Program-made: the position numbers and the translations under genes
Part shown: positions 1,359 to 7,737 of the stretch, in pieces
Position numbering within the stretch: the stretch's first letter is position 1
How the letters are laid out: each line of letters opens with the position of its first letter
Notes under the pieces: model-generated
The model's input: only the letters and a program-made list of their open reading frames with translations
What the model was told of the DNA's origin: nothing
The model's database searches: none
Assembly: GCA_031264425.1 (NCBI GenBank)
Contig: JAISDY010000049.1
Span: forward strand, 1 to 8,435
Source: Endomicrobium sp.
Lineage (GTDB): Bacteria; Elusimicrobiota; Endomicrobiia; Endomicrobiales; Endomicrobiaceae
DNA: 8,435 bases
Reading direction: 5' to 3'

Positions 1359-4238
1359 TTAAGTTTTACACAGTATCGTTAATCCTTTTTCAAGATTAAA
1401 GAAATTTGGTATAAGTTTGTATTTTTCAGCCCATGCATGCGCAATTTCAGCTTCGTCTTTTCTATTGGTGTCATCCAGCCAAACTTGTACTTTATTACTT
1501 AAATTTTTATAAAGTATTGGTAAAGCAGGATACCTTGCATAAGGATTTGTATTTCCGGGAGGACCGTCAATAATTAACAAATCAATCTCTTTTAAGTCTA
1601 AAGTGTCAACTATTTTTTCGTCATACCAAAATACAGGTTTTTCGTTGCATAAATGCTCACCAGTCCAAATCTTAAGCTGTGCTAAACGTAAATCAAGAAA
1701 TAATGATAAATTTTCATTTTTAATAACTTCCATTGTTTCTTCCATGAATTTTTCTAGGTGTTCTATAGATATAAGACGTCCTGAATTGTTTTGGCTTAAA
1801 GCATCGCATATAACAATAGTTGAAACGCCACTTCCAAACTCTAAAACAGTTTTAGGTTTTGCATTTGTTATATATTCATGGAGCTTTAGCAATACATCTG
1901 GAGACATTGCCCAGTTTCTCATTGGAGGCAAACTATTTTTAATTTTTAATCTTTTGCTGAGCCAAAATAAACTTTCAAGCTGAGTGTAATTTAAATGTTC
2001 ATTATTTTTGCAAATATTTATCAATTCTTTTTTAAAGTCTTGGGTTTGAGAAAGAACAATGTTCTTGATCTCGTCTTTATGTGTTAGGAGTGTATCAGAA
2101 AATTGTTTCTTAACAGAATCAGTTTTATTTATCAATTCTTTTTTAAAGTCTTGAGTTTGAGAAAGAACAATGTTCTTGATCTCATCTTTTAAATTTTTAA
2201 TACTCTTCTCTTGTTCTTTAAGTTTTACCAAAAGTTCTTTATGTTTTCTTTTGATTTTTATCTTTATCCTAAAAATTCCAATTACTTTGTATATTCCATC
2301 GTTCTTTATACAAAGTATATTTTCTAAGAACATTGTAATATTCTTTCTAAATTTTAGAAGTCTTTCTTTGCGCAACTTAATCTTCAATCCAAATATGTTA
2401 ATAACTTTATGAGTATTTTCATTATATACATATACACAAAAGAAGTACTTTAAAATTCGCTCATAACGAGGGTTAACAATCAAAATAGGATAATCAATTT
2501 TCAACTTTTTAGAAAGACTTTTTACTTTTCTGTTAGCTTCTTTGTACAATCTTTGGTCATACTCAAGTCTTTTAAAAAGACTCTTTACAACAATATAAAA
2601 ATATTTTTTATATTGTTGTTCATATTTATCATATATGTGTTTGAGAATATACAATATATCTAATATACCTACATAATTTTTATTCCTCATGTACATAATA
2701 GAACTCTTTCGTATAAGTCTGTGATAAAATGATTTGTCATGATAGTAAATTGTCTTTATCACTGAGAAATAATACCAATGCCAAGCCTCATCCTCATTTA
2801 TAAGGTTAACTGGAAACCTTAATTTATACGCATTGATTATACTCATTTTATATAGCTTTCCGCATGAAGCTACGCGATAATCAAAAAAATTTCCTTCAAA
2901 TTTATATAATCCACTTGGTTTCTTAAATTTATTATAATACTCTTTAAACTTGTCAGACATATTCATCATGCTAGTATCTTCTGGAATGACTACAAAATCA
3001 CACAAAACAATATCAATATTTCCTTTTAACATTGTATCGTAAAAATTTTTAATAGTATCAATCTCTATCCAGTCATCTGAATCTAAAAAGAAAACATACG
3101 GCGAACGTACGATATCTAAACCTCTGTTTCTTGCAGCTGATAATCCACTGTTTTTTTGATTTACTACAATTACCCTTTTATCTTTATTTGTATATTCATT
3201 TAAAATTTTGAGAGAGTTATCCGTAGAACCGTCATTTATGCAAATAATCTCAATATCTTTAAGAGTTTGATTAACGACACTGTCAAGGCAGTGACATAAA
3301 TATTTCTCTGTATTATAAACAGGAATTATTACTGATACTTTTGGATACTTTGTATAAGCTATCCAAAAGTCATTGAAAAAGAATTTCGTGTCTTGTTTTA
3401 GAGATGACAATGTATCTTTTAAAACATATTCAATATCAGAATTTTCTTGAACCTTGTTTTTAAATAGTGTTGTATGGCTGTTATTATTTATTCTTTCTAC
3501 AATTTTAGCGTGCAAAGTCTCATAAGCATATTTTTTAGTTAACTCAAGCGACAATTTTAATCCTTTTGCAAGCGCTACTGCTTGTATAAAATTAAACTCA
3601 GATATATAAGGTTTATGTCCAGTTCTATAACAATAAACAATATCTTTAATTGCATAAAATTTTTCTGCATAAGCCATATACTTAATAAACCAAGGAGGAT
3701 CTTGATATCTAATAAAATCAGGAAAATATAAATTATTATTTTTCAGTAAACTAAAATTATAAATAAATCTCTGATAGTAATAGTCATATTGATAATCTAT
3801 AAAATTCATTAATTGATTTTTTATAAAGTAACTCTCTTGAAAATTATTTTTAATATAATTGCCTTTAGCATCGCATAAAGAGAGTGAACCTCCACAAACA
3901 AGGGTACCTTCATTCTCAGACGTATTATATAGACTCTGTAATACTTCATTAGTCGGGTAAAAATCATCGGCATCCATAAATGCAAAATACTTCCCTCGTA
4001 CAGTTCTTAAAGCACTGTTTCTTGCAATAGCTACCCCAGCATTCTTCTGCTGTAAAATTACAAATCTACTATCTCTATTCGCGTATTCATTTAAAATTTG
4101 AAGCGAATTATCCGTAGAACCGTCATTTATGCAAATAATTTCAATATCTTTCAGTGTTTGATTAACAACGCTGTCAAGGCATTGGCGTAGATATTTTTCT
4201 GTATTGTAAACAGGAATTATTACCGATACTTTTGGCAC
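1359..4238 (-). CDS. Multidomain protein: two GT2 glycosyltransferase domains, coiled coil, methyltransferase-like domain
   Basis: This is a 959-residue cytoplasmic or membrane-peripheral protein with no signal peptide or clear transmembrane helix. Domain 1 (about 1-290) is a GT-A family 2 transferase with NDGS at 38-41 and DADD at 89-92 as the metal/nucleotide-sugar site. Domain 2 (about 299-580) repeats this with NDGS at 335-338, DSDDW at 386-390 and a NEDE acidic motif at 481-484, so both look catalytically complete. Residues 611-665 hold two copies of a KVIxIFxxKIKxxRK motif. Residues about 660-745 are charged and coiled-coil-like with a 37-residue tandem duplication. Residues about 755-959 form a SAM-methyltransferase-like Rossmann domain: LEFGSGVST (motif I, 799-807), SIEH (824-827), LLIIDGPPG (887-895) and WLDDT (920-924). 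The start is GTG with AAGGAG five bases upstream; that site overlaps the TAA of the preceding gene, suggesting translational coupling. Sugar specificity cannot be read. It is the last gene of the operon. The domain order recalls chain-terminating O-antigen proteins such as WbdD, but that is analogy only. Confidence 0.85.
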   Translation of the reverse strand: MPKVSVIIPVYNTEKYLRQCLDSVVNQTLKDIEIICINDGSTDNSLQILNEYANRDSRFVILQQKNAGVAIARNSALRTVRGKYFAFMDADDFYPTNEVLQSLYNTSENEGTLVCGGSLSLCDAKGNYIKNNFQESYFIKNQLMNFIDYQYDYYYQRFIYNFSLLKNNNLYFPDFIRYQDPPWFIKYMAYAEKFYAIKDIVYCYRTGHKPYISEFNFIQAVALAKGLKLSLELTKKYAYETLHAKIVERINNNSHTTLFKNKVQENSDIEYVLKDTLSSLKQDTKFFFNDFWIAYTKYPKVSVIIPVYNTEKYLCHCLDSVVNQTLKDIEIICINDGSTDNSLKILNEYTNKDKRVIVVNQKNSGLSAARNRGLDIVRSPYVFFLDSDDWIEIDTIKNFYDTMLKGNIDIVLCDFVVIPEDTSMMNMSDKFKEYYNKFKKPSGLYKFEGNFFDYRVASCGKLYKMSIINAYKLRFPVNLINEDEAWHWYYFSVIKTIYYHDKSFYHRLIRKSSIMYMRNKNYVGILDILYILKHIYDKYEQQYKKYFYIVVKSLFKRLEYDQRLYKEANRKVKSLSKKLKIDYPILIVNPRYERILKYFFCVYVYNENTHKVINIFGLKIKLRKERLLKFRKNITMFLENILCIKNDGIYKVIGIFRIKIKIKRKHKELLVKLKEQEKSIKNLKDEIKNIVLSQTQDFKKELINKTDSVKKQFSDTLLTHKDEIKNIVLSQTQDFKKELINICKNNEHLNYTQLESLFWLSKRLKIKNSLPPMRNWAMSPDVLLKLHEYITNAKPKTVLEFGSGVSTIVICDALSQNNSGRLISIEHLEKFMEETMEVIKNENLSLFLDLRLAQLKIWTGEHLCNEKPVFWYDEKIVDTLDLKEIDLLIIDGPPGNTNPYARYPALPILYKNLSNKVQVWLDDTNRKDEAEIAHAWAEKYKLIPNFFNLEKGLTILCKT
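2015..2078 (-). repeat. Coiled-coil tandem repeat, C-terminal copy
   Basis: This 64-bp segment matches 2126-2189 with two mismatches and encodes the second KDEIKNIVLSQTQDFKKEL copy (protein residues 721-739, with flanking residues also repeated). The two copies are offset by exactly 111 bp, or 37 codons, so the duplication keeps the frame. Confidence 0.9.
2126..2189 (-). repeat. Coiled-coil tandem repeat, N-terminal copy
   Basis: This is the first copy of the 37-codon unit, encoding KDEIKNIVLSQTQDFKKEL at protein residues 684-702. It differs from the copy at 2015-2078 at two of 64 bases, so the duplication is recent or kept uniform by recombination. The 47 bp between the copies are not repeated. 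Confidence 0.9.
3195..3344 (-). repeat. GT2 N-terminal module, copy 4 (second GT domain of the fusion)
   Basis: This is one of four 150-bp direct repeats encoding PKVSVIIPVYNTEKYL through ILNE of a GT2 domain. It is the most divergent copy (11-16 mismatches to the others) and lies inside a gene, joining domain 1 to domain 2 of the fusion protein. It has the K form of LK/LQ-ILNE, like copy 1, but carries copy 2-type bases at its gene-proximal end. Confidence 0.9.
4086..4235 (-). repeat. GT2 N-terminal module, copy 3 (start of the fusion gene)
   Basis: This 150-bp direct repeat starts at codon 2 of the 1359-4238 gene. By hand count it has 7 mismatches to copy 1 (7543-7692), 8 to copy 2 (5076-5225) and 16 to copy 4. 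Similarity ends abruptly after ILNE, and the rest of the domain is unlike the other copies. Confidence 0.9.
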
Positions 4239-4247
4239 AAGGACTCC

Positions 4248-5237
4248 TTATTTTTGAAATCCTAAATAATGTCTTAGGAAAACAGGCAATAATTTGAATC
4301 TTTTTACTCTTTTAACAAAATCATAGTAAACATCTTTGTAAAAATACTCTTTTGGCAGATTGAATGCTTCATATTTTGTCAATAAAATATATAGATTTGT
4401 AAGCACATTAATACAAGCAAGCTTATGACTCTTCAGAGTCTTTAGGTTGTACATAGATATTTCACAAAATTTATTAATAAAACTTTCCTTGTGTTGTTGA
4501 TAAATGCCTTTCATCAGTAAAAAATTTCTTAGAGAGTCCAGCGCTTTAATAAAATCTAGGCATGAATTATGATTATTATTCTGGAGACTCGCCATATTAT
4601 TTATTCTATATGTAATAAGATATTTTTCAAGTATGACTGTTTTGGTAGATATTGCAATAGCGGAGTAAACAAAAAATAAGTCATTTGTTCTCGTAATTTT
4701 TTGAAATTTCAAGTTATTTTCAATAATAAAGTTTCTTTTAAAGAACTTACTCCATACATTTGGGGTAAAAATTCTAATTAGTCTCGGCGAGTCTTCTTTA
4801 TAAAAAATTTTTTTGTCAGGAAAACTACCAAGCTTTATAAGATTAATATTTCCTGTAATATCACAATATTTTTTATAAAAAGATAAAACTATATCACATT
4901 GATTTTCCTCAGCTGTGTCATAAAATTCCTCTAATGCATCAAGCTCAAAAAAATCATCACTATCCCAAAACATAAGATATTTCCCATTACTTATCACAAG
5001 TCCTTTATTCCTTGACGCTTCAGCTCCTTCATTCGTACTATTTATTACTACAATTCTGTTATCTTTATTTGCATACTCATTTAAAATTTGAAGCGAATTA
5101 TCCGTAGAACCGTCATTTATGCAGATAATCTCAATATCTTTAAGAGTTTGATTAACAACGCTGTCAAGGCACTGACGTAGATATTTTTCTGTATTGTAAA
5201 CAGGAATTATTACTGATACTTTTGGTGCTGATGTCAT
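4248..5237 (-). CDS. Family 2 glycosyltransferase, 329 aa
   Basis: This is a GT-A fold transferase that would move a sugar from a nucleotide donor to a growing surface glycan at the cytoplasmic face. The N-terminal strand motif PKVSVIIPVYN is at 5-15, NDGS at 41-44, and DSDDF at 92-96 is the metal-binding DxD site. RTNDLFF at about 181-187 occupies the place of the catalytic-base motif. The tail (KRVKRFKLLPVFLRHYLGF) is basic and hydrophobic and may touch the membrane. The ATG at 5237-5235 is supported by AAGGA a few bases upstream. It lies 33 bp after ugd and 9 bp before the next gene, so it is co-transcribed. Residues about 5-54 are shared almost exactly with three other GT2 domains here, while the rest is unique. 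The donor and acceptor cannot be told from sequence. Confidence 0.88.
   Translation of the reverse strand: MTSAPKVSVIIPVYNTEKYLRQCLDSVVNQTLKDIEIICINDGSTDNSLQILNEYANKDNRIVVINSTNEGAEASRNKGLVISNGKYLMFWDSDDFFELDALEEFYDTAEENQCDIVLSFYKKYCDITGNINLIKLGSFPDKKIFYKEDSPRLIRIFTPNVWSKFFKRNFIIENNLKFQKITRTNDLFFVYSAIAISTKTVILEKYLITYRINNMASLQNNNHNSCLDFIKALDSLRNFLLMKGIYQQHKESFINKFCEISMYNLKTLKSHKLACINVLTNLYILLTKYEAFNLPKEYFYKDVYYDFVKRVKRFKLLPVFLRHYLGFQK
5076..5225 (-). repeat. GT2 N-terminal module, copy 2
   Basis: This 150-bp direct repeat at the 5' end of the 329-residue GT2 gene encodes residues 5-54. By hand count it has 8 mismatches to copy 3 and 13 each to copies 1 and 4. It shares the LQILNE block with copy 3, but other sites with copy 4. 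Confidence 0.9.
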
Positions 5238-5270
5238 TTAAAATCCTTATAGTTGCCCTATTAATTTATC

Positions 5271-6570
5271 TTATATATTAGAATTACCTATAATATGACA
5301 TACAAATCTATTTTTTCTGGCTTCTTGTGAGTTTATGATATTTCTTAAGTCAAATATAATTTTATTACGAACAAGTGTTCTTATTTTAGCCCAATCCAGA
5401 AATTTGAAATGTTCACATTCTGTACCAAACGCAATTAAATCGGCATCTTTTACTGCATTATACACATCTACAGCATAAGTTACCCTAGACTTAAATATTT
5501 TTTTAGAGTTATCAATAGCCATAGGATCATATACGCAAACATCAATATTTTTATCTAGCAATTCCATTATTATGTCAGTTGATGGAGATGATCTGCAGTC
5601 ATCTACTCCTGCTTTAAAAGCTAATCCTAAAAAGGCTATTTTAGGATTTTTATACTCTTCAACAAGATGTAAAATTTTTGCAGCTAGCTCTTTTTTTCTA
5701 GATTCATTTGCCACAATTGTGGACTCTACAAGCCTAAGACGTGAACCAGCAGATTTCCCAAAATTTGCTAGAGCTAAAGTATCTTTAGGAAAACAGTTAC
5801 CGCCAAATCCCGGACCGGGATTTAAAAATTTTTCTCCGATGCGTGTATCAAGACCCATAGCATACGCTACATCATATACATTACATCCGCTTTTCTCACA
5901 TAAATTGGAAAGTTCATTTATAAAAGTAATTTTCATTGCAAGAAATGAATTTGACGCATACTTTATCATTTCAGCTGAAGTACGAGATGTGAAGAAAATC
6001 TTGGTTTTATCTTTGAAAGGACTATAAAGTTTTTCTAGGACATTTTTTGCTCTTTGTGATTCTACTCCAATAACTATACGGTCAGGTTCAAAAATATCAT
6101 GTATTGCCATTCCTTCTCGTAAAAACTCAGGAATTGATACAAGATCAAAGGATGCTTTCGGATTAAGTTGCTTTATTAAGTTCTCTATTTCTTTGCAAGT
6201 GCCGGGCAGAACTGTTGACTTGATTACAATAGTTGTGTATCTATCTAGGTAATTTGCAATATCATGTGCTACTATGTATATACATGACAAATCTACCCCC
6301 CCCCCGAAGAGTGGGTGTATCCACTGCTATTGTTATAACATCTGCTTTTCCTATGCTTTCTAATGACGTGGAAAAACTCAATCTTTTGGCAGTAACGTTT
6401 TTTATGAGTAAATGTTTAAGTTTAGCCTCAGCTATTGTTGGCTCACATTTCTGCAAAAGATCTATTTTTTCTTTATCCTTATCAATCCCCACAACTACAT
6501 TTCCTAGCTCTGAAAAAGCGATAGCAATAGGAAGACCTACATAACCAAGTCCTATGACATGCATATTCAT
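5271..6570 (-). CDS. ugd: UDP-glucose 6-dehydrogenase, interrupted by a one-base frameshift in a G10 run
   Basis: Ugd oxidises UDP-glucose to UDP-glucuronate with two NAD+, supplying an acidic sugar for capsule or exopolysaccharide. The N-terminal frame (6570-6262, 102 aa) has the NAD site GLGYVGLP at 7-14 and AVDTPTL ending at residue 88, then enters a ten-G run, leaves frame and stops. The continuation, from about 6292 to the TAA at 5273-5271, is intact: STVLPGT, EFLREG, KYASNSFLAMK and FGGNCFPKD. Joined as if the run were nine Gs, the protein is 432 residues, a normal length. That numbering puts catalytic Cys at 259, Asp at 263 and Lys at 203, close to the well-studied streptococcal enzyme. 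The FGGxCFPKD form points to Ugd rather than a UDP-ManNAc dehydrogenase. As written the gene makes no enzyme; the downstream part alone lacks the NAD domain. The break may be phase variation or a homopolymer sequencing error. The start is ATG 6570, with only a weak GGG-containing site upstream. Confidence 0.88.
6296..6305 (-). repeat. Poly-G tract (G10 on the coding strand) inside ugd
   Basis: Ten consecutive Cs on the plus strand (Gs in the coding strand) lie just after the TPTL codons of ugd. Nine or twelve Gs would keep the frame (LRGG-VDLS or LRGGG-VDLS), while the ten seen shift it and cause a stop 12 codons later. I saw no other comparable C or G run in this AT-rich window. Such tracts are classic slipped-strand contingency sites, and also classic sequencing-error sites. 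Confidence 0.95.
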
Positions 6571-6591
6571 AATACTATTTACCCTATACCT

Positions 6592-7701
6592 TTAACTTAA
6601 AATTTTTTTAACTTTTTTGAGACATAATACAACTACGCCAAGAAAACCATGAATACAAAAAAAATTCCTAACAAATACGCGTTTGCCTCTATTAAACATA
6701 AAAGCAGATACTAAAATTCCAAGCATTTTATTAATATTACCATGCACTACAAACTTTGCATATTCTTTGTATGTATGCGATATACTAATGGCTTGGTAAA
6801 CAAAGGAGTTATTTTTGTCAAAATAAGGATTTGTCTCAAAAGATAAAATACTAAAATAAGCTTTAAATTTCAAGAAATATTCATTTTTATACTCTTTTTT
6901 AATCTTATGTGTCCATTTCTCCAAGTTAGTGAAAGCAAAAAATTTGGCTAACTTGAGATATTTCTCTTTATCAGTGTCATTAAGCGCATTTGTTGCTTTT
7001 ATAACCTCGTAAATTTTATTATGACAATCAAACAAAATGAAGGGCGAGCGATCTAAGCCTGCAGTATCTGAGCAAGAAGAAATCCTTTCATTTCTATAGA
7101 AATATTGACCCTTTTGAGATATAGTAATATTCTTTGCAAGCATTGATGATATAAAAGTAAAAGAAACATCTGAGAAAATTTTAACTTCTTGGAAAAATAT
7201 ACCATTATCTATTAAAAAGTCTCTTCTATATATTTTAAACCAAGAATAACTAATAAAAAACAAACGTCTTTCTTTTTCATCTTCGCTGCCTTTGTTCCAA
7301 TTCCATGAACTTTTTTTGTTTTGTTTAACGTTTACTATTGTGCTAGCAGCAACTATATCGCTATTCTCTTTTTCCGCAGTCAAATATAAGTTTTCATAAA
7401 AATTTAAATCAATCCAGTCATCGCTATCAACAAAACCTATATACCTTCCTTTTGATACGCGTATGCCAAAATTTCTTGCAAAAGATACGCCTTTGTTATC
7501 AATTAGGTTAAGCAATTTAATTCTATTATCGCTTGAAGCATATTCATTTAAAATTTTGAGAGAGTTATCCTTAGAACCGTCATTTATGCAAATAATTTCA
7601 ATATCTTTCAGTGTTTGATTAACAACGCTGTCAAGGCATTGACGTAGATATTTCTCTGTATTGTAAACAGGAATTATTACCGATACTTTTGGACTATTCA
7701 T
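6592..7701 (-). CDS. Family 2 glycosyltransferase, 369 aa
   Basis: This is a GT-A family 2 transferase, expected at the cytoplasmic face of the membrane in surface glycan assembly. Numbered from the ATG at 7701, PKVSVIIPVYN is at 4-14, NDGS at 40-43 and DSDDW at 92-96 (DxD metal/nucleotide site). FSDVSF further on fits the catalytic-base position. The tail (FFCIHGFLGVVVLCLKKVKKIL) is hydrophobic then basic and may anchor the protein to the membrane. A TTG at 7707 is in frame, but the ATG at 7701 is preferred because AAGGAAG sits nine bases before it. It is the first gene of the glycan operon, 75 bp after the dus gene and 21 bp before ugd. Its first 50 or so residues are shared with the other GT2 domains here, except for SKDN in place of STDN. 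Sugar specificity is unknown. Confidence 0.88.
   Translation of the reverse strand: MNSPKVSVIIPVYNTEKYLRQCLDSVVNQTLKDIEIICINDGSKDNSLKILNEYASSDNRIKLLNLIDNKGVSFARNFGIRVSKGRYIGFVDSDDWIDLNFYENLYLTAEKENSDIVAASTIVNVKQNKKSSWNWNKGSEDEKERRLFFISYSWFKIYRRDFLIDNGIFFQEVKIFSDVSFTFISSMLAKNITISQKGQYFYRNERISSCSDTAGLDRSPFILFDCHNKIYEVIKATNALNDTDKEKYLKLAKFFAFTNLEKWTHKIKKEYKNEYFLKFKAYFSILSFETNPYFDKNNSFVYQAISISHTYKEYAKFVVHGNINKMLGILVSAFMFNRGKRVFVRNFFCIHGFLGVVVLCLKKVKKILS
7543..7692 (-). repeat. GT2 N-terminal module, copy 1
   Basis: This 150-bp direct repeat at the 5' end of the 369-residue GT2 gene encodes PKVSVIIPVYNTEKYL through ILNE. By hand count it differs from copy 3 at 7 bases, copy 4 at 11 and copy 2 at 13. 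It shares the LKILNE block with copy 4, but the middle and gene-proximal variants with copy 3. Confidence 0.9.
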
Positions 7702-7737
7702 TACCAAAAACTTCCTTGATTAAAAACTCAATTTTAT

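Follow-up and report, generated by a model that had tools for sequence, protein, structure and literature searches.

A near-identical 150-bp start shared by four GT2 glycosyltransferase domains in an Endomicrobium contig, and its probable role as a point of recombination

Four GT2 glycosyltransferase domains encoded side by side on one Endomicrobium sp. contig open with the same 150-bp block, nearly unchanged at the DNA level, and continue into downstream parts that share 25-32% protein identity. The reading that we favour, with a probability of about 0.75, is that the block is a conserved 5' start of the four domains that was spread by gene conversion and serves as a crossover point for their ends. 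Its likeness exceeds what the encoded proteins and codon usage predict, its history conflicts with that of the downstream parts, and in a close relative one downstream part has been replaced, with the best-fit joint lying inside the block.

The locus and its four block copies

The window, i.e., the whole stretch of DNA that was analysed, is one entire contig of 8,435 bp (C28) from an Endomicrobium sp. MAG of 0.91 Mb in 145 contigs, 69% complete. All genes named here lie on its minus strand. In the reading direction, a dihydrouridine synthase fragment at the upstream end is followed by GT2 gene A, a UDP-glucose-dehydrogenase-like (UGDH-like) gene in two frames, GT2 gene B, gene C, and a leuA-like gene. 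Gene C is laid out as GT2 domains C1 and C2, a tail, and a methyltransferase-like domain. Since C1 and C2 belong to one 959-aa protein, there are four modules in three genes, and all four domains pass the curated cut-off of PF00535, which places them among the GT2 glycosyltransferases.

6592..7707, minus strand: gene A, GT2 glycosyltransferase; open reading frame of 371 aa from TTG (369 aa from an ATG two codons further in); PF00535 E 4.6e-38; homologues P0141-P0145
4248..5237, minus strand: gene B, GT2 glycosyltransferase; open reading frame of 329 aa; PF00535 E 2.6e-38; structure predicted
1359..4238, minus strand: gene C, open reading frame of 959 aa; PF00535 in two stretches, plus PF13578
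1473..1844, minus strand: methyltransferase-like domain of gene C (PF13578 profile)
7543..7692, minus strand: block copy A, the initial 50 codons of gene A's GT2 domain
5076..5225, minus strand: block copy B, in gene B
4086..4235, minus strand: block copy C1, in the first GT2 domain of gene C
3195..3344, minus strand: block copy C2, in the second, internal GT2 domain of gene C

An earlier note on this DNA had reported these four copies with 7-16 mismatches per pair, and both their positions and these counts were confirmed: all are in phase with one another on the minus strand, each forming the first 50 codons of its GT2 domain. Over the 150 nt the six pairs show 7, 8, 11, 13, 13 and 16 mismatches (89.3-95.3% identity), most of them at third codon positions, the copies share exact runs of up to 70 bp, and the block proteins of B and C1 are identical. 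The near-identity of the block thus stands, with an end less sharp than had been ascribed to it: the likeness fades at about nt 150-165, depending on the pair, where the strong protein conservation of GT2 domains fades as well, no other protein segment of the family being as conserved as the block. A structure predicted for gene B (mean pLDDT 92) has the block, at residues 5-54, spanning beta1-alpha1-beta2 and most of alpha2, in agreement with its earlier description as the first part of the fold. A DSDD motif (DxD-type, residues 92-95) lies downstream of it, and sugar-nucleotide transfer is the putative activity. As the block precedes this motif, a crossover within it would leave a functional start in place and attach a different remainder, and in enzymes of this kind it is generally the downstream remainder that sets specificity.

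Queried with the 150-bp block, the window's own genome is matched at four places, all in this window, and no fifth copy was found at E <= 0.001 in this 69% complete MAG. PF00535 has seven places in the genome, three of them outside the window, and 0/3 of these were matched by the block. Over 59 genomes, nine (the window's own included) have a match at E <= 1e-5. The many further copies in the genome that the earlier note named as support were therefore not seen, and its proposal of a dedicated cassette system for reshuffling glycosyltransferases was not borne out: only four copies were found, on one 8.4-kb contig and all inside long open frames, with no silent, partial donor copy found in the incomplete genome. 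Nor is the arrangement that of a shufflon, as the four copies share one orientation and the seven ORFs scanned include no recombinase. No finding calls for dedicated machinery.

Replacement of a downstream part in relatives

G024 is an Endomicrobium sp. relative with about 90% DNA identity to the window (UGDH-like gene 90.6%, C1 89.9%, tail stretch 92.4%, methyltransferase stretch 92.7%), and its gene C carries a different sequence between the second block and the tail.

3216..3224, minus strand: best-fit position of the joint in gene C, window compared with G024 (block nt 121-129; two-rate fit)
2429..3215, minus strand: downstream part of C2, replaced by a different one in G024
2126..2428, minus strand: tail of gene C with FGLKIK-type repeats; 92.4% DNA identity with G024; possible right-hand anchor

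In a two-rate fit over nt -300 to +330 (2-lnL interval), the joint falls at nt 121-129 (dlnL 52). Identity is 89% on the left side of it and 51% on the right side, and its position maps to the loop after beta2 in the predicted fold. Window and G024 thus have the same flanks, a different end, and a joint within the shared segment, which is one clear case of a modular exchange of ends; a swap between close relatives with its breakpoint inside the block, set beforehand as a check, is what was observed. The second domain of G024 differs from gene B at 15/30 sites over nt 121-150 and at 10/75 over nt 151-225, and this uneven likeness implies that it is itself mosaic. P0005, a protein from another record that represents a further allele, combines a C1-like first domain with a second domain of the G024 type, the latter being at the protein level a mosaic with patches of low identity.

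Among close relatives, only the C2 position is seen to differ. C1 is retained in G024 and P0005, and at the protein level start and end are unchanged in the close homologues found of A (P0141-P0145, 84-95% identical) and of B (P0122, 82% identical). The same arrangement in all relatives, which would have spoken against reshuffling, is accordingly seen for A and B in these homologues and not for C2, which differs in G024. Exchange is seen between species-level genomes, and within-strain switching was not found. As separate observations, P0145, a partial homologue of gene A (85% identical), comes from a record assigned to a Clostridiales Family XIII MAG, which is possibly a mis-binned contig, and G024 carries upstream of its UGDH-like gene only a 44-residue remnant (L022:6043-6174) that is 64% identical to the C-terminus of gene A.

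Comparable combinations are found elsewhere. In G016, a gene whose downstream part resembles the second domain of G024 has a start that matches a G029 gene at 88% and a G019 gene at 85% identity, the likeness to the latter beginning about 30 nt ahead of the block. In G091, which belongs to another genus of the same family, two adjoining giant proteins of 1,323 and 1,632 aa (L071:1914-5885 and 6094-10992) have a common N-terminal part and GT2 start, diverge at nt 218-227 into different middle parts, and both carry a GLKIK-type tail. These cases are few, and they suggest that the process may extend beyond one species. Stretches of G029, G016 and G019 contain the tail of gene C again, at 75-77% DNA identity, and it could therefore be a right-hand anchor.

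Together these comparisons are consistent with a block that homologous recombination (gene conversion) has likely copied from one neighbouring gene to another, and at which crossovers likely exchange the downstream parts that bear specificity. The partner would be either a neighbouring same-strand copy or DNA taken up by competence, the machinery is likely ordinary RecA-type recombination, the shared tail of gene C would anchor the exchange on the right, and the expected outcome would be a diversified, putative surface glycan. ComEC is present in 23/40 and RecA in 32/40 genomes of the genus (the window's own counted in both), and RecA was not found in G024, which is 86% complete. PMC8809381 reports competence and recombination genes as conserved and expressed in Endomicrobium.

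The same recombination step could have had a different role. Gene conversion might homogenise the one stretch that is long and alike enough for RecA, as a neutral by-product with no part in the exchange of ends, the G024 difference being an independent replacement with a joint that lies there by chance. The converted tract does coincide with the most conserved GT2 segment, and the ends of A and B are stable; the best-fit replacement joint of G024, however, lies inside the block (nt 121-129), and the mismatch of start and end appears again in G016 and G091, so that we regard such a by-product as possible though rather unlikely. A stronger version of the exchange model would see in the first two beta-alpha units a recombination socket, kept near-identical through gene conversion to let new downstream halves, drawn from neighbours or from gut-acquired DNA, plug in between socket and tail, allowing a reduced-genome symbiont to renew its surface sugars modularly; this version is doubtful. 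It is very improbable that the pattern is an artefact of assembly or binning, in which similar genes from several strains were joined at a repeat. The window is indeed one whole 8,435-bp contig of a 145-contig MAG with exact shared runs of up to 70 bp, but other records join the same start to the ends of A (P0141-P0145), of B (P0122) and of C1 (G024, P0005); start and C2 end are seen together on this contig only.

Codon-level selection and conflicting histories

Purifying selection alone, which would keep the nucleotide-binding start alike in ordinary GT2 paralogues without recombination, fits a block that is the most conserved protein segment of the family, that is identical in protein between B and C1, and whose differences are mostly synonymous. 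It fails at the codon level. Under a null in which the proteins are fixed and codons are sampled from the remaining coding sequence of the window (2,304 codons), 32-34 block mismatches are expected (sd about 4.3), and the observed identity is reached in 0/20,000 draws for each of the six pairs. A within-genome yardstick points the same way. From 99 GT2 domains of 34 genomes or records, collected by profile search with exclusion of domains with E above 1e-20 or under 150 residues, pairs were kept that share at least 25/50 identical block residues and have a downstream identity <36%, which left 88 within-genome pairs, with a median block identity of 0.69, and 2,919 between-genome pairs, with a median of 0.65. 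The six window pairs occupy ranks 1-6 of the 88, followed by a G091 pair (0.867) and the G024 pair (0.847). Between genomes, 5/2,919 pairs reach 0.85, three of them linking the window to G024 and two linking the G016 gene to the G029 and G019 genes.

The Campylobacteraceae provide a control, as a MAG of this family (L053) has the downstream parts of C1 and C2 in the same order. The starts of this pair (CampA) differ at 40/150 sites, versus 16 in the window, and lie near the codon null, slightly more alike than expected (181/4,000 draws at or below the observed value). The simplest reading of these sequences is that the starts were overwritten in the Endomicrobium lineage and the downstream parts left in order. 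Purifying selection alone is refuted at the codon level by these comparisons, unless an RNA or DNA constraint fixes synonymous sites, and its overall probability is minimal. Separately, two Campylobacteraceae MAGs (L053, L054) encode proteins that match the tandem GT2 stretch of gene C at 43-51% identity, a likeness that suggests transfer between distant gut bacteria.

The downstream parts have histories of their own. In a protein tree of 22 domains, C1 groups with C1 of G024 and one domain from the Campylobacteraceae (100/100), C2 with one domain of G029, one of Elusimicrobiota and two of Campylobacteraceae (99/97), and the second domain of G024 with the G016 gene (100/99). A constraint that unites A, B, C1 and C2 carries a penalty of 361 lnL units (p-AU 7e-89). 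A recent whole-gene duplication followed by very fast downstream divergence, as adjoining genes of the same orientation with like starts might suggest, is hardly credible: it is rejected by this clade test, and the tree refutes it for C1 and C2, whose downstream parts each have their own relatives elsewhere, and more weakly for A and B, which sit on long branches. The downstream parts of A and B have no close relative in 119 genomes (best outside identities 43% and 37%), and close homologues of both are present in the protein collection.

A comparison of whole topologies over 16 domains gave rejection in both directions: of the downstream topology by the block DNA (dlnL 87.5, p-AU 5e-18), and of the block topology by the downstream parts (dlnL 920, p-AU 4e-39). 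This whole-topology test, which dropped 7/23 block rows (s24x, s29c, s25, s22b, s04a, s16b, s19b), was added because single-clade AU tests on the 150-bp block are mostly non-rejecting. In the latter, C1 with its downstream relatives is the sole rejection of five (p 0.036), the values being p 0.25 for C2 with its downstream relatives, p 0.45 for C2 with the G029 domain, and p 0.10 for the second domain of G024 with the G016 gene. In the free block tree, the six blocks of the window and G024 do not form one clade, and a one-clade constraint is not rejected (p 0.26). The reciprocal rejection of trees and the codon null (0/20,000) together uphold the earlier statement that ordinary paralogue divergence is insufficient, and the block shows what is expected of concerted evolution, i.e., likeness beyond selection and ancestry combined with conflict with the tree of the rest of the gene.

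The time of conversion is less clear. Third-position differences number 5/50 in the A-C1 block versus 31/247 in the downstream part of the C1 orthologues (Fisher p 0.81; p 0.28 with nt 1-120 alone), and a conversion of the block later than the split from G024 is not shown by these data. Runs tests for mosaic structure give p 0.023 for the four window copies and p 0.0004 when the two G024 copies are added, and p 0.35 when block nt 1-120 are taken alone.

Known systems and other features of the locus

The GT2 family (PF00535) includes the tandem two-domain chondroitin synthase (PDB 2z86, 2z87), with which the domains studied here share membership of the profile family, and gene B is related in sequence to this enzyme and to other GT2 structures. 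A locus in which near-identical DNA starts precede unlike ends is not in itself a trait of the family (median within-genome pair 0.69). Intragenic recombination between paralogues is known from genes for surface glycan transferases, namely Neisseria lgt and Helicobacter fut, and the present case is alike in that paralogous genes of this type recombine. The lgt and fut paralogues, however, are alike over much of their length, whereas here the ends are 25-32% identical. In Neisseria pilE/pilS, homologous recombination transfers sequence non-reciprocally between adjoining homologous copies, a likeness to the process proposed here, which differs in that no silent truncated donors were found and no within-strain switching was seen. 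This pilin gene conversion is mentioned in PMC3848433 and PMC6959607.

The 3' domain exchange of meningococcal tpsA/tpsC, described in PMC3848433, is alike in having a common segment followed by exchangeable, unlike 3' parts, and in exchange between relatives at low frequency. According to PMC3848433, the tpsC cassettes are without the 5' part of the gene and serve as donors accompanied by immunity ORFs, in contrast to the four long-frame starts seen here, for which no donors were found; moreover, TpsA proteins are secreted competition proteins, those encoded here putative surface-glycan enzymes. No report of the present phenomenon was found in the literature on glycosyltransferase recombination, a search largely outside subscription journals. 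The kind of modular gene evolution is already known, and this form is a new variant of it.

Should the block be a swap point, mutation and the transfer of whole genes would not be the only routes to a changed glycosyltransferase specificity; the exchange of enzyme halves would be another, and a reduced-genome Endomicrobium, reported to express competence genes, would remodel a glycan locus in this way. The natural joints (the loop after beta2, nt 121-129, and nt 218-227 in G091) would suggest fusion points for chimeric GT2 enzymes.

Two further features of the locus concern repeats. The UGDH-like gene is split into ORFs at 6262-6570 and 5271-6290, with a ten-C run at 6296-6305 where the frame splits, i.e., ten G on the strand of the gene, which may be a phase-variable tract or decay. 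The UGDH-like gene of G024 is also split and has a ten-G run (L022:6457-6466), and the homologue in G029 (L024:7964-9259) has an open frame and no ten-G run. More long G runs, of 13, 9 and 9, occur in the G024 locus (L022:7654-7666, 12342-12350, 15840-15848), and runs of nine or more G are found in 33/40 genus genomes searched, with overlapping positions counted. Finally, a 64-nt direct repeat of gene C (2015-2078 and 2126-2189; 97% identical, spacing 111) sits between the tail and the methyltransferase-like domain.
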